Below are positions 2,274 to 18,017 of a stretch of DNA of 24,682 bases, piece after piece. Origin of the DNA: a virus; the IMG/VR virus record IMGVR_UViG_3300035698_010881, positions 1 through 24,682 of that record; one strand, written 5' to 3'. The notes beneath the pieces are model-generated. The model was not told the origin of the DNA. It saw only the letters and a list, made by a program, of their open reading frames with translations, and did not search any database. The position numbers were made by a program, and so were the translations under genes. The stretch's first letter is position 1. Each line of letters starts with the position of its first letter.

Positions 2274-2572
2274 GCGGATCAAAACACGCATCAGCCCCGT
2301 GGAAATGGAAAGAAGAGCCCGGCTACCCCGAAACCTACCTATACGGTCCCAACCCAAAAGATAAATACGATTGCATATTAAGCATTTGCGAGAGTCACGG
2401 CGGCGGACAAGTTCCGGCCGATGCTGACAAGGCATTGATTGAGGCCGCGCCTGATCTGTTGAAAGTGTGTATTCGCCTCGCGGATTTGGCACGCATAGGG
2501 GTGACGCCGTGGTCGGATGATATGCAGGCTGCTCGTCTCGCGATTGCCAAGGCGACGGGGGTGTCCCCATGA
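2270..2572 (+). CDS. Small phage protein with LIEAAPDLL motif
   Basis: A 100-residue protein. Its ATG overlaps the preceding stop. The N-terminal half contains Trp, Tyr and Pro-rich segments (APWKWKEEPGYPETYLYGPNP). Residues 50-66 read PADADKALIEAAPDLLKVC, which matches the conserved ADAxLIxAAPxLLxxx motif seen in many small phage accessory proteins (family knowledge). A C-terminal helix and the tail ATGVSP follow. The tail has the same DNA as the end of the preceding gene. The stop overlaps the recombinase start. Function unknown. Confidence 0.7.
   Translation: MSGSKHASAPWKWKEEPGYPETYLYGPNPKDKYDCILSICESHGGGQVPADADKALIEAAPDLLKVCIRLADLARIGVTPWSDDMQAARLAIAKATGVSP
2551..2572 (+). repeat. Repeated gene-junction sequence, copy 2
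   Basis: GGCGACGGGGGTGTCCCC then ATGA: same junction as at 2250-2273 without the AG. It encodes the GVSP tail and supplies the start codon of the recombinase. Confidence 0.75.
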
Positions 2573-3249
2573 CTGCCATCATCTACACCCGATTCAGCCC
2601 CAGGCGTAACGCCGATAAGTCGGAGAGTTGCGAGACCCAAGAGGCGCTGTGTCGCGCCCACGCCGAGGCACAAGGCTGGCCGGTCGGCTCGGTCCACGCC
2701 GACCGAGGCAAGAGAGGCAAGGACGCGGACAGGCCGGGACTCGCTTCCGCCCTCGCCGCTTTGCGGCGGGGCGACGTACTGCTGGTCTACAAGCGAGACC
2801 GGATCGCCCGCCAAGTGCTGACTATCGAACTGACCAAACGGCAGGTTAAGGCAGCAGGCGCCACGATAGCGGCGGTCTCCGGCGACATCGCGGGCGACGA
2901 TAACGACCCTACGGTCATATTTGTGCGGCAAGTGATGGATGCGGTTGCGGAACTGGAGCGGAAGCAGATCGCGGTGCGGACCAGTGACGCGATGCTGCAA
3001 TTGCAGCGGCAAGGCCGGCGGATGGGCAGGTACGCTCCGTATGGGTGGCGGATCGACCCCGAGGACTCGACGATGCTGCTGCCCGCGCCCTCCGAGCAGG
3101 CTACGGTCTTGTGGATAAGAGATTTGGCCTCGCAGGGGCTTGGGATTGCCGATATTCTCCACCGACTCAGCGCGGAAGCAAGGGGCTCTGCACGGTCGGG
3201 CTCGTGGAGTTACAACGCGGTCAAACGGATACTGGTCAGAGAGATGTAA
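2569..3249 (+). CDS. Small serine recombinase
   Basis: Site-specific recombinase of the serine resolvase/invertase/integrase superfamily, 226 residues. The N-terminal catalytic domain (1-140) starts IIYTRFS, with R8 and the presumed nucleophile S10. It continues with SCETQ (20-24) and VYKRDRIAR (73-81), which carries the active-site arginines, then an E-helix-like segment with ELERKQIAVRTSDA. Residues 150-222 (GRYAPYGWRI ... GLGIADILHRL ... SWSYNAVKRIL) match the beginning of the recombinase DNA-binding domain. The protein lacks the zinc ribbon and coiled coil of full-length large serine integrases (usually over 450 aa), so it is either a natural short form or truncated. It is last in the rightward block and may be the integrase or may act on nearby inverted repeats (inference). 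Confidence 0.88.
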   Translation: MTAIIYTRFSPRRNADKSESCETQEALCRAHAEAQGWPVGSVHADRGKRGKDADRPGLASALAALRRGDVLLVYKRDRIARQVLTIELTKRQVKAAGATIAAVSGDIAGDDNDPTVIFVRQVMDAVAELERKQIAVRTSDAMLQLQRQGRRMGRYAPYGWRIDPEDSTMLLPAPSEQATVLWIRDLASQGLGIADILHRLSAEARGSARSGSWSYNAVKRILVREM

Positions 3250-13629: not shown

Positions 13630-13880
13630 TTTGTTATCACCCGCTCCGCCGCGAGCCGTGCTCGGCGGAACCACGATTGCCTTTTCTTGGGTATCGAGTC
13701 AATTGGTTTGGCGCGATGCTGTGGCTGCCGAGTCGCCTTACTGAGTAAACGGGCAGCCCAGTGGGCTTTTCTCTTCAGCCGCCTGCCTATGTTGTGCAGC
13801 GCCACCGCTAACTGCTCTTTCGACGTGCGGCAACCGACGATCCGGACTCGCTGCTGATGTCCTTGCATTTTAGCTTTCAT
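13626..13880 (-). CDS. Small highly basic protein, 84 aa
   Basis: ATG 13880 overlaps the Cas4-like nuclease stop. The product is rich in Arg, Lys and His (NIGRRLKRKAHWAARLLSKATRQ ... KKRQSWFRRARLAAERVITK) with few acidic residues. The central segment could be an amphipathic basic helix. No family recognised. Together with the next gene it forms a pair of small basic proteins between two PD-(D/E)XK nucleases. Confidence 0.55.
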   Translation of the reverse strand: MKAKMQGHQQRVRIVGCRTSKEQLAVALHNIGRRLKRKAHWAARLLSKATRQPQHRAKPIDSIPKKRQSWFRRARLAAERVITK

Positions 13881-15217
13881 GTCTTCCCTTTCCAGATCGC
13901 CGCCCAGTTATCCTTCTTGTAGACGACAACGCAGATATCATTCATGCCATCGGGCAGACTCTTATACTCATACGCCGCGTGGGCGTCGTCTTCCTCGAAG
14001 CGATCGGGTGCTGCATAATCCAAATCGCCGGGGAGGCCAAGATCCAATAGCCCTTCGGATAGGTCTTCAGGCAGGCCATCCCACAGCCGCTCCGCATCGC
14101 CGGGCGAATACTGATGGACCAACGGTGTCCGCTCGCACTCGCCCCCGAACGCCTCCTTGACCCTCTCCACACTCTTGTCGCCGACGGCTGCGCCGGGACT
14201 CCGCATCAGTTCGGCGGTCGACCACAGGCCATCGCCATAGCCATGCTTCCATCTCGCTTTGTCTGCCAGATTCTCGAATTCGATCCAATCGTCGCCGGCG
14301 TCGACCGGAGCGGCGAACCAGACCAGGCCAGGCAGTAGCAGGTGTCCGTCGCAGCCGACTCCCATCTCACCCGGTGTCAGATCGCGATTCTGCACAGAGC
14401 ATGTCCAGACGGCGTCCGGGATGTCCTCGTACACGCCGTCGAGTTCCGGCGTGGCGTGGCAGCACGTTTGGCAGTTGCGGCAGGGGATAGGGACAGCCGC
14501 CTCCTCCATATTGCCCCAGCAAAGGGCGTGGGCATCGCAGTCCTCGCACTTGAAGTTGTCGCTGCGAGTGGCACAGCGTTCCAGCGGGGCGTTACTGCGG
14601 ATGATCCGCTCGGCACGAGCCATGAGCTTCTTGAAGGCTTTAGAGTCGAAACGGACTCGCTCAGAATAGAGATGGTCGGTGTCCTTATTGCGGGCCAAGT
14701 AGAGGGCACGCTTCAGGCCGTTCAGCCCCATGTAGACCTGCATCTGCGCAAAGTGCTTGGGATATGCGACCTCCACGCCGACCTTAACGAGCTTGGCGAA
14801 GTATTTGGCCGCACACGTCTTGAATTCGAGGACATGCCACGTCTTCGGGGCCTCGGGGATGCCCAGGGCGCATCCGTCCATATGGCCGGAGAAGTGACCG
14901 CCCAGAGCACTGACTGCGAATTGTTCGCCGGTCTCGGGGTCGACCTCGTGGACCTCACATCCAATGGCCCGCAATTCCCGGACGAATCGAATCTCTTCCA
15001 AGTCGCCGGTCTCGAAAAGGCGGTACAGCCTGCCCTCGAAATTTCGTGGGACGCAGCCTCGGAACGTGTACCAAAGGAAGCGTTCGCACTCGTGCCCAAT
15101 GATCGAGGCGCCGAGATAGCCACGCGCTGGCTCGGAGTCACCCCGCCGCTTGTGGTACTCATAGATACGCCCGACCGTTTCGGATATCGGGCTTAGATGT
15201 TTACTTAGTTCGCCCAT
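13877..15217 (-). CDS. Cas4/AddB-like PD-(D/E)XK exonuclease with Fe-S cysteines
   Basis: A 446-residue protein. The nuclease core has the GHECERFLWY opening (C44), HMDG (112-115, D114), VLEFKT (129-134, E131 and K133) and QMQVY (158-162, motif with Q and Y). Cysteines C224, C227 and C233 (FKCEDCDAHALCWG) together with C44 make the C...CxxCx5C set that holds a 4Fe-4S cluster in Cas4 and AddB nucleases. A second cysteine group follows (PCRNCQTCC, 246-253) and an acidic C-terminal third. The family degrades or resects DNA ends, providing single strands for annealing by the Sak4-like ATPase and DUF669 protein. Start ATG 15217 has AAGGA about 10 nt upstream. Its first seven residues, MGELSKH, are shared with the DUF669 protein. 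Confidence 0.85.
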   Translation of the reverse strand: MGELSKHLSPISETVGRIYEYHKRRGDSEPARGYLGASIIGHECERFLWYTFRGCVPRNFEGRLYRLFETGDLEEIRFVRELRAIGCEVHEVDPETGEQFAVSALGGHFSGHMDGCALGIPEAPKTWHVLEFKTCAAKYFAKLVKVGVEVAYPKHFAQMQVYMGLNGLKRALYLARNKDTDHLYSERVRFDSKAFKKLMARAERIIRSNAPLERCATRSDNFKCEDCDAHALCWGNMEEAAVPIPCRNCQTCCHATPELDGVYEDIPDAVWTCSVQNRDLTPGEMGVGCDGHLLLPGLVWFAAPVDAGDDWIEFENLADKARWKHGYGDGLWSTAELMRSPGAAVGDKSVERVKEAFGGECERTPLVHQYSPGDAERLWDGLPEDLSEGLLDLGLPGDLDYAAPDRFEEDDAHAAYEYKSLPDGMNDICVVVYKKDNWAAIWKGKT

Positions 15218-15235: not shown

Positions 15236-15361
15236 CTAATCAGTGTTGTGTGCGAGGACTGAAAAGATCAACGCAGTGAACAAAAACCATCCCCACCCCG
15301 GCATATCGCTTATCGCCGTTCCACCAGCGTACATAAGACTTACGAGGGCCATACCGCACAT
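15236..15361 (-). CDS. Small two-segment membrane protein, 41 aa
   Basis: Reading from ATG 15361 gives 41 residues, MCGMALVSLMYAGG at the start and WGWFLFTALIFSVLAH near the end: two hydrophobic stretches joined by SDMPG, consistent with a tiny membrane protein. An AGGAG lies about 20 nt upstream, further than usual. The frame also extends upstream through the tRNA-like region, but that part looks non-coding. Phage small membrane proteins include holins and superinfection factors; I see no basis for choosing. Moderate confidence that it is translated. Confidence 0.45.
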   Translation of the reverse strand: MCGMALVSLMYAGGTAISDMPGWGWFLFTALIFSVLAHNTD

Positions 15362-15395
15362 AAAATATTTCGTCGTTTTGCTCCTGTGTTGATAT

Positions 15396-15457
15396 TGCAC
15401 CGGGCAGGATTTGAACCTACTCGAACCTGGGCGGGCGATCAACTCCGCCCCCGGTGC
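15396..15457 (-). ncRNA. tRNA-like structure lacking an anticodon arm
   Basis: On the minus strand, GCACCGG (15457-15451) and CCGGTGC (15403-15397) form a perfect 7-bp acceptor stem followed by A. Immediately inside the 3' strand is a textbook T arm (15420-15404): stem GTAGG/CCTGC and 7-nt loop TTCAAAT, with the invariant G-TTC-A-A-C positions. Between acceptor and T arm there are only 30 nt, against about 42 in normal tRNA. They form one hairpin, GGGCGG/CCGCCC (15450-15429), with a D-loop-like loop (AGTTGATCGC), and no anticodon arm. It could be a deleted tRNA or a functional tRNA mimic. AGGTTCGA and AGGTTCAA occur 10 nt apart, hinting at a slippage duplication. Confidence 0.5.
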
Positions 15458-15461
15458 GTTT

Positions 15462-15524
15462 GCTGGCGTGGCCAAAATCCGTCTAACCGCGGGGCCTTCT
15501 TGGAGTCCGTCGCAGCACGCCAGC
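15462..15524 (-). repeat. 63-nt arm closed by a 9-bp perfect stem
   Basis: GCTGGCGTG and CACGCCAGC pair exactly over 9 bp. Inside, CTGCG/CGCGG can form a second stem around a loop containing GGACTCCAAG. It precedes the tRNA-like arm on the minus strand and has nearly the same length (63 nt against 61), but it has no TTC-type T loop. It may be a folded partner domain or a processing hairpin. Confidence 0.5.
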
Positions 15525-15536
15525 AATATTCAGTTT

Positions 15537-15992
15537 TTAGACCAACTTAACGGTGACAGCAACCTTTGCGGGCGTCGCAACGACGCACTCGGCGAGTTTG
15601 GCGGCCGCGCCGGGATTGTCGGCCCGGATCCTTTCATACGCCTTCTTGTCAAAGTCGTAATGACTCGGCACGAGTGTCAGCGGGATATCCACATCGCCGA
15701 GGTCCAACCCCCGGATCGCCTTGACGTCAGCCTTGTAGTTCAAGCCGCGTTTGACCGTAACTCGCATACCGTCTCCAGCGTCGACGGTCTTGCTACCTTG
15801 ATCGCCCTCAGTTGGCACCAGTTTGGCGATGGCCTTCTCAGCCTCGATACGTTTCGCTTTGGCCAGCGACTCTTCGCGTTTGGCATTGTAAAGCTGTACT
15901 GTGAGCACGTGGATGCCGGGCTCCGTCTGGGTACTCGGGGGAATAGGGGCGGGTGCGTCTTCGCCATTCAACCCATCGCCTTGTTCATTCAT
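15537..15992 (-). CDS. Phage hypothetical protein, 151 aa
   Basis: ATG 15992 overlaps the stop of the zinc-ribbon gene upstream. The N-terminal 30 residues are Pro/Glu-rich and probably disordered. Residues 35-60 form a charged helix (YNAKREESLAKAKRIEAEKAIAKL). The remainder is a compact alpha/beta module with strands MRVTVKRGLNYK and a C-terminal PAKVAVTVKLV, separated by VDIPLTLVPSHYDFDKKAYERIRADNP. I recognise the shape as a common unnamed phage protein found near SSB-like genes, but cannot give a function. Its position after the DUF669 gene suggests a role in recombination. Confidence 0.7.
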   Translation of the reverse strand: MNEQGDGLNGEDAPAPIPPSTQTEPGIHVLTVQLYNAKREESLAKAKRIEAEKAIAKLVPTEGDQGSKTVDAGDGMRVTVKRGLNYKADVKAIRGLDLGDVDIPLTLVPSHYDFDKKAYERIRADNPGAAAKLAECVVATPAKVAVTVKLV

Positions 15993-16171
15993 AATTCAGT
16001 TCCTTCATCATTGTCCGGGTCAATCATCTTAAAGCCGAGCGACAACCGCTCGCCGTAGGTGGGTTCGTCGGGCCGACACGCGGGGCATTCGGCATAGTCA
16101 TCGCCTTCGAGTTGGCAGAAGACGGAGCCGCAGGCCGTGCATCGGGGGTAGGTGGGGACGTACTCGGGCAT
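15989..16171 (-). CDS. Zinc-ribbon protein, 60 aa
   Basis: It starts at ATG 16171, overlapping the TAA of the DUF669 gene (TAATG). The sequence RCTACGSVFCQLEGDDYAEC contains CTAC at residues 11-14, then ECPAC at 28-32, a classical four-cysteine zinc ribbon with acidic linker. The tail is acidic (DPDNDEGTEL). Likely translated by coupling with DUF669. Function unknown. Confidence 0.65.
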   Translation of the reverse strand: MPEYVPTYPRCTACGSVFCQLEGDDYAECPACRPDEPTYGERLSLGFKMIDPDNDEGTEL

Positions 16172-16701
16172 TACTTATCCCAGGGCCTCTTGCCGCCGGT
16201 GGATGCTGCGGGTGCTTCTTCAGGAGGGACCTGAGACCCGCCGGCCTCGTCGCCTTTGGTCTTCGGCGCGGCCTTCGTCTTGCCGCCGCCGCCGATGGGC
16301 CTGTAGCCTTTGACTTCGTTGTCGGGATCACCGTTCTGGTTTTTGCAGACAACGAGCTTCATCTCACACCGCTTGCCGATCAGCATGTCCTCGTCGTCGA
16401 GGAGCGGGATGCCGCACGCCGCCGCCAGATCGCACTGTTCTCGGAAGCCGATGTTTTCGCACTCGGCGTTCGGATTGGACACGTTAATCCACGAGAATAC
16501 CTTGCGACCGTTGAATTCCTCACCGAAGACTACGGCTTCCAATTTTATCCCCACGCCGGTATTCTTGGAATTGCTCTTAATCTCGGCTTTCTCAATCTCG
16601 ACGCCTCGCCAGCCCGCAGGCATCGGAGGGTAGTCGCCTCTTTGTTCCGCGTCTTCGGCCCTGGCCGCGCCGCCCGGTTGATGTTTACTTAATTCGCCCA
16701 T
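16171..16701 (-). CDS. DUF669 family protein (phage SSB-like)
   Basis: A 176-residue member of the DUF669 family, found in phage recombination cassettes and thought to act like a single-stranded DNA-binding or annealing partner. The core (25-135) shows the family signature: YPPMPAGWRGVEIEKAEIKSN, then GVGIKLEAVVFG, GRKVFSWINVSNPN, LAAACGIPLLDDEDMLIGKRCEMKL and NEVKGYRPI. A flexible Gly/Lys/Pro/Ala tail follows and ends GGKRPWDK, reminiscent of an SSB tail for protein contacts. ATG 16701 has AGGAA about 9 nt upstream. The first seven residues, MGELSKH, are identical to those of the Cas4-like nuclease. Confidence 0.85.
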   Translation of the reverse strand: MGELSKHQPGGAARAEDAEQRGDYPPMPAGWRGVEIEKAEIKSNSKNTGVGIKLEAVVFGEEFNGRKVFSWINVSNPNAECENIGFREQCDLAAACGIPLLDDEDMLIGKRCEMKLVVCKNQNGDPDNEVKGYRPIGGGGKTKAAPKTKGDEAGGSQVPPEEAPAASTGGKRPWDK

Positions 16702-17183: not shown

Positions 17184-18017
17184 TCACTTGCTTTTGGCCG
17201 GGGCGACCGCCGCCACCGCGTTCTCGAACTCCTGCCAGTCCAGCGGAAGTTCGTAAGGAAGCTGGCCATAGATGCCGCGACCGCCGCCTGGATGGTCGGG
17301 CCGCTTCTGAGTGAACAGATACCGCTTGCCTTCCGTTGTGTCAATGGCGGTCCGCTTCGCCTTGCTGAACTTGGTGTCCTCGCCCTGCTTCTTGACGACG
17401 ACTTTGGTGTTCGCAAACAGGATAACGTCGGCCCATCGCTTCAGCAGTTCAGCGACGTCCCCGTTGTCCAGATCGAAGTCGTACATATCGTAGTCGTCGC
17501 CGGACGGGTTCTTCATCTTCTTCACCCGAATGTGGCCGATGATAATGGTCGACATATTCTTCTCGGCCCGGAGCGCGTCGAAGCCGTCGAGGATGCCTCG
17601 CCATCTGTTGAGAACGGCGGCCTCGCCGGTTCGGAAACCGGGGACCTTGCGAATGTTGGTGACGTCAAACTCTTCGCACACGTCATCATTGATGAGCATC
17701 GCGGCCGCACTCGCCGAATCGAGGACATCGGTGCGGTACTTATGGTCTTCCGAGTAGAGCGAACCGATCGCTTCAAGAATGTCCTCGTATTTCTGACACG
17801 TCGGGAAGATCGGGACGTCGAGGCCGTCCGCTCCCTCCTCGCCGCGAATGGGAATGACGATCGGGTCATTGATCCCAACTCGGGTCATCACTCCTTTTTT
17901 ACTGAACTGGGCTCCGCATCCGAAACAGGTCTTGCCGATCTTCTCGACGCCGAGGACGATGATCCTCGGAGCCCGTAACGTGATGCCCTTGGTGATACTT
18001 TTCAGGTTAAATGCCAT
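17184..18017 (-). CDS. Sak4-like RecA-fold ATPase
   Basis: A 277-residue ATPase of the phage AAA_24/Sak4 type, RecA-core proteins that promote single-strand annealing or recombination. Walker A is GVEKIGKT (23-30). Walker B-like VLDS (98-101) follows a strand. GHIRVK and DYDMYDFDLDNGDVAELLKRWADVILFANTKVVVK match the conserved later strands, and a glycine-rich segment (DHPGGGRGIYGQLP) lies near the end. A 30-residue insertion (GVMTRVGINDPIVIPIRGEE) follows the Walker A helix. The gene overlaps the Tat-signal gene by 11 nt, with AGGAG 7 nt before its ATG. It is upstream of DUF669 and the Cas4-like nuclease, a classical recombination set. Confidence 0.85.
   Translation of the reverse strand: MAFNLKSITKGITLRAPRIIVLGVEKIGKTCFGCGAQFSKKGVMTRVGINDPIVIPIRGEEGADGLDVPIFPTCQKYEDILEAIGSLYSEDHKYRTDVLDSASAAAMLINDDVCEEFDVTNIRKVPGFRTGEAAVLNRWRGILDGFDALRAEKNMSTIIIGHIRVKKMKNPSGDDYDMYDFDLDNGDVAELLKRWADVILFANTKVVVKKQGEDTKFSKAKRTAIDTTEGKRYLFTQKRPDHPGGGRGIYGQLPYELPLDWQEFENAVAAVAPAKSK

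Follow-up and report, generated by a model that had tools for sequence, protein, structure and literature searches.

A tRNA-like element without an anticodon arm in an intercistronic spacer of a phage recombination operon

A phage recombination operon carries, upstream of its Cas4 gene, a 62-nt tRNA-like element (minus strand, 15457-15396, in the same sense as the operon) that, judged by its predicted fold, resembles the top half of a tRNA and is unable to read codons. The element lies in a viral DNA of 24,682 nucleotides (IMG/VR record IMGVR_UViG_3300035698_010881), hereafter the window, and comparable elements recur in the same operon of more distant relatives. We tentatively propose, ahead of the other readings considered, that it is a tRNA-derived or tRNA-mimicking intercistronic RNA, serving as RNase P/RNase Z punctuation or as mRNA-end protection between cistrons.

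Results

Read 5′ to 3′, the element consists of GCACCGG, GGGCGGAGTTGATCGCCCGCCC, AGGTTCGA, GTAGG TTCAAAT CCTGC, CCGGTGC and A, and its predicted minimum free energy (MFE) fold is a three-way junction formed by the acceptor stem, one inner hairpin and the T arm:

15396-15457, minus strand: tRNA-like element with acceptor, D-like hairpin, linker, T arm and discriminator A (fold and scanner)
15451-15457, minus strand: acceptor 5′ strand GCACCGG (sequence and fold)
15429-15450, minus strand: single inner hairpin GGGCGG-AGTTGATCGC-CCGCCC with a D-arm-like loop (fold)
15404-15420, minus strand: T arm GTAGG-TTCAAAT-CCTGC (sequence and fold)
15397-15403, minus strand: acceptor 3′ strand CCGGTGC, with A15396 as the discriminator (sequence and fold)

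All seven acceptor pairs are Watson-Crick, the T stem is paired at 5/5 positions including one G-U, and the T loop TTCAAAT has every canonical residue. The inner hairpin is D-arm-like but lacks G18G19 (AGTTGA), and an 8-nt linker (AGGTTCGA) joins it to the T arm. RNA folding gave an MFE of -32.3 kcal/mol (z -3.57), a stability equaled by none of 200 shuffles, so that the 62-nt tRNA mimic with perfect acceptor and T arm, which the original prediction had described from the letters, holds up. The same is true of the missing anticodon arm: the best 17-nt fit has three pairs and no U33. The element thus has the 7-bp acceptor and the 5-bp T arm with TTCRA loop of a canonical tRNA, without the anticodon arm (5-bp stem, 7-nt loop, U33) and without recognition by tRNA models. 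RNase P prefers RCCA; no CCA is encoded after the element, where the discriminator A is followed by ATATCAACACAGGAG. At 15428-15409 (minus strand) two 10-nt units, AGGTTCGAGT/AGGTTCAAAT, form an imperfect tandem repeat; the linker resembles a duplicated T-arm start and is perhaps a trace of deletion or slippage.

The operon reads, in order, Sak4-like ATPase, small ORF, DUF669, small ORF, phrog_2480 (DUF7173), spacer, orphan ORF, Cas4-domain nuclease, VRR nuclease, helicase and primase, the VRR nuclease being named from its own sequence and from the gene order of related phages rather than from a domain search of the ORF. The features around the element are the following:

17184-18017, minus strand: Sak4-like/AAA_24 annealing ATPase (domain/family assignment)
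16171-16701, minus strand: DUF669 protein (domain/family assignment)
15537-15992, minus strand: phrog_2480/DUF7173 protein, the gene upstream of the element (domain/family assignment)
15460-15526, minus strand: 11-bp hairpin TTGCTGGCGTG..CACGCCAGCAA, separated from the element by 2 nt (shuffle p 0.003)
15381-15385, minus strand: Shine-Dalgarno-like AGGAG in the context CAACACAGGAG (sequence; like the pre-Cas4 site in L001 and L007)
15236-15373, minus strand: small orphan ORF downstream of the element, a possible membrane peptide without homologue
13877-15217, minus strand: Cas4-domain exonuclease (phrog_1990), the downstream gene (domain/family assignment)

The element-bearing spacer is the only long untranslated sense spacer in the Sak4-to-Cas4 block. 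It spans 163 nt up to the orphan ORF and holds, in order, the 11-bp hairpin (15526-15460), 2 nt, the tRNA-like element and CAACACAGGAG; no promoter-like site was seen in it. A 96-aa ORF overlaps the element and has no Pfam match and no homologue in the loci compared, which leaves unsupported the idea that the region is translated within a longer protein. The upstream hairpin was considered as a conserved partner of the element and dropped, as it is significant in the window only (p 0.003) and marginal in one relative, L085 (0.05). Elsewhere in the window (24553-18806, minus strand), a 1915-aa ORF with HEAAH and HEHFH metalloprotease-like motifs probably encodes a large polyvalent phage protein.

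To gauge rarity we used a scanner for a TTCRANN T loop, a 5-bp T stem and a 7-bp acceptor at tRNA spacing. Among 14,826 shuffles of the window, 22 contained an equally high-scoring element (p about 0.0015), and 115 contained any 7/7 plus 5/5 element above a lower score. Since this p value alone leaves chance possible in a large scan, the surroundings of the element matter. ARAGORN called no tRNA or tmRNA at the element, and at gathering thresholds nothing in Rfam, its tRNA model included, matched there. The covariance search suggested earlier gave sub-threshold matches only, to mascRNA (16.7 bits) and tRNA-Sec (14.6 bits), the former against a curated score of 42.5 bits for mascRNA/menRNA (RF01684); the covarying pairs that the original prediction also called for appear among the recurring elements described below.

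We then scanned Cas4 relatives in IMG/VR for recurrence. The spacer between DUF669 and phrog_2480 of five contigs contains nine such elements, one to three in each, and a contig pair has one at another place in the operon:

L085: one element, sense
L095: two elements, sense
L021: three elements, sense
L049: two elements, sense
L042/L087: one element, sense
Contig pair L011/L012: one element after Sak4, sense

Most of the nine end in ...CGTC-TTT, and the recurring elements always lie between genes, in sense, in the same recombination operon. Markov-shuffling 5.4 Mb of the relatives' sequence produced about ten matches at the display threshold, so that the few isolated intragenic matches are expected noise, which does not hold for nine elements within five short spacers. 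Compared with the first carrier, the phrog_2480 proteins of this group are only 49-60% identical, and an element is kept in all five spacers. Only two of the recurring elements are recognized by ARAGORN, as tRNA-Lys (CTT) at L021 1984-2053 and tRNA-Met (CAT) at L049 1841-1915. Pattern scans of the whole of IMG/VR, run with the five-contig family and the L011 element as targets, returned no additional contigs, and the more distant phrog_2480 relatives L251-L266 have no tRNA-like element and in some cases have long hairpins. In two of these, L257 (4484-4821) and L258, the DUF669-to-phrog_2480 spacer encodes long structured RNAs sharing a stem of the GGACGCGAGC..GC(T)CGCGTCC type, about 21 bp in L258, with inner domains that differ between the two; they are possibly another conserved intercistronic RNA. 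In a 102-nt tRNA-like element of L084 (2147-2248; Infernal tRNA 18.7 bits), both acceptor and T arm are intact; the single long inner hairpin contains GAGGAAAGTC, which resembles a motif conserved in RNase P RNA. In L013/L112/L015, ARAGORN finds a tRNA-Ser(AGA) (L013 4784-4857) that is above the Rfam tRNA cut-off and has an anticodon arm unlike a normal stem-loop.

To see which parts are retained, we analyzed pairing in 13 elements: the nine of the five-contig group, that of the window, and those of L011, L084 and L013. Acceptor and T-stem cells are paired at 94.9%, compared with 36-58% in slid-partner controls. Changes on both sides occur in 10 of the 12 acceptor/T-stem pairs, a covariation that is not pure evidence of selection because the elements were found through paired acceptor and T arms and possibly derive from different ancestral tRNAs. 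A proper anticodon arm (5-bp stem, U33, purine at 37) is present in 2/13; canonical phage tRNAs treated alike had U33 and four to five anticodon-stem pairs in 5/5 cases. A check anchored on the T arm, in which the second L049 element was read by eye, showed an acceptor of at least 6/7 pairs at the tRNA position for 9/9 T arms of the five-contig group, bar seventh-pair G-A mismatches. Among the recurring elements, then, acceptor and T arm are favored over the anticodon arm; like the structure, position, sense orientation and recurrence of the elements, this preference was computed directly.

The spacers of the lineage are often structured. Among non-redundant relatives, z falls below -2 for 14/32 DUF669-to-phrog_2480 spacers and for 9/19 phrog_2480-to-Cas4 spacers, compared with 11/100 Cas4 coding segments. 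In the window the full spacer, delimited to include the orphan ORF, is no more stable than its shuffles (z -0.36), and the element alone is exceptional. Judged by this spacer structure, tRNA-like elements may take the place of ordinary intercistronic stem-loops or supplement them.

At the homologous site, the nearest relatives compared (Cas4 protein 54-58% identical) have no tRNA-like element before Cas4, carrying other hairpins or none; the element is therefore not conserved at its exact place. Four of them (L001, L007, L016 and L017) show single plain 11-12 bp stem-loops before the Cas4 gene, and two (L001 and L007) have a CACAGGAG site ahead of it. Comparable elements turned up solely in a different spacer or in phages less closely related. 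The cultured relatives H40/1, CRP-901, NP1, R3, RHph_TM3, Yong-M3-232, CGphi29 and ct3Oc712 have no such element near the operon, and a similar-DNA search of annotated phages yielded only scattered T-arm matches.

Discussion

Within a pre-tRNA, RNase P and RNase Z recognize the acceptor together with the T arm. Known substrates of RNase P include operon mRNAs (the his operon and other polycistronic messages), phage M3 RNA and the precursors of phage P1/P7 C4 RNA (PMC11143913). Because these enzymes read the acceptor and T arm, and because RNase P processes operon mRNAs and phage RNAs, punctuation or end protection is the reading that we place first. The predicted acceptor stacked on the T arm would form a minimal substrate for RNase P and the tRNA 3′-processing enzymes: RNase P would cut before G15457, and the 3′-processing enzyme near A15396. 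Cleavage would split the message into a Sak4/DUF669/phrog_2480 part and a Cas4/helicase part; the 11-bp upstream hairpin would be left as a protected 3′ terminus on the first, and the AGGAG site just downstream would end up close to the newly made 5′ terminus of the second. Cleavage, mRNA separation and protection are what we infer here from the fold, the rarity, the sense position in a spacer, the recurrence within the operon, the retained acceptor and T arm and the structured spacers across the lineage. Pointing the other way are the site without an element in closer relatives, an upstream hairpin that is not general, the lack of an encoded CCA and the unexceptional whole spacer. The processing signal named in the original prediction thus gains indirectly, through predicted structures, from the recurrence of non-decoding elements in the operon, and loses in that the element is not kept at the exact site in close relatives. 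The similar pieces in the operon of distant relatives are probably markers for cutting or protecting mRNA.

The main rival, a serious one that we hold quite possible and place behind processing, had also been raised at the outset: an ordinary phage tRNA gene whose anticodon arm was deleted and which is now functionless. Over its last 25 nt the element differs by one A/G change from the 3′ half of a genuine phage tRNA(TAT) (L239), a match that is weak proof of descent because the T-arm consensus alone favors tRNAs; by sequence, descent of the element from a tRNA is nevertheless likely. Decay would also fit the canonical anticodon arms that persist in related phages, in the Lys-CTT element of L021 and the Met-CAT element of L049, and the absence from the closer relatives compared. 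It does not readily explain why both the acceptor (7/7) and the T arm (5/5) survive whole when the anticodon arm is lost, or why each of the nine T arms in the five-contig group retains its acceptor within the limits given above, as decay should not spare the top half repeatedly.

The compactness and high stability of the element, its tRNA-like look at both ends and the tandem copies, two to three, in L021, L049 and L095 could suit a stable small RNA acting in trans, either a decoy for tRNA-targeting host defenses or an sRNA with tRNA-like ends; we consider this unlikely, given that there is no decoding loop for anticodon nucleases, no sequence common to the middle parts and no promoter-like site in the spacer. 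Slightly less likely still is chance, whereby a strong intercistronic stem-loop of the lineage happens to look like the top half of a tRNA: plain stem-loops do occupy the same spacer in four relatives, and a probability of about 0.0015 per window applies to many windows in a genome scan, but the T-loop consensus is correct, the element is sense and intergenic, and other phages have comparable elements in this operon. Attachment sites often have a tRNA 3′ half as their att core. The attachment site suggested earlier, taken here as one that carries a host tRNA gene's 3′ end, is nonetheless very improbable, as the 24-nt 3′ half, with up to one mismatch, occurs in 0/1,097 genomes of three host groups (385, 343 and 369; these may not include the phage's own host), so that no host tRNA parent was found there, no integrase adjoins the element, the only recombinase seen lies about 12 kb off, and the acceptor 5′ strand, unneeded in an att core, is perfectly paired. 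That recombinase, a resolvase-type serine recombinase, is on the opposite strand (2569-3249, plus); L095 has a similar gene (2053-2721). In L154 (14071-14120) we noted the 3′ portion of a host-like tRNA-Asn for which no gene is called; it is possibly what remains of an integration site.

Several known systems resemble the element in part. Like the RNase P substrates of operon mRNAs and phage RNAs (PMC11143913), it is a structured RNA, tRNA-like or stem-shaped, that lies within a longer transcript; their cleavage is experimental and that of the window element is proposed, and the likeness is one of description, not structure by structure. With phage tRNA genes it shares the acceptor, T arm, D-like arm, discriminator and sense position in an operon, but it is only 62 nt long, lacks the anticodon arm and is missed by ARAGORN and the Rfam tRNA model. 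mascRNA and menRNA, which are cut by RNase P/Z, are likewise short and tRNA-like, their acceptor and T arm being good and their middle reduced; they are eukaryotic nuclear RNAs, and the window element stays below their threshold. The tRNA-like domain of tmRNA is also a tRNA upper half without anticodon arm, whereas the element has neither tag ORF nor pseudoknots. Mitochondrial tRNA punctuation uses tRNA structures as intergenic processing marks, but these are working tRNAs, while most of the phage elements cannot decode.

A broader and more doubtful extension of the processing reading is that degenerate, non-decoding tRNA-like elements serve this phage lineage as punctuation between genes of the recombination operon in a mitochondria-like manner, host RNase P and RNase Z setting the ends and separate lifetimes of the phage mRNAs. 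tRNA finders overlook such elements. If they are processing marks, these phages would recruit host tRNA-maturation enzymes to tune an operon, and the odd non-decoding "tRNAs" in phage genomes would have a simple explanation.
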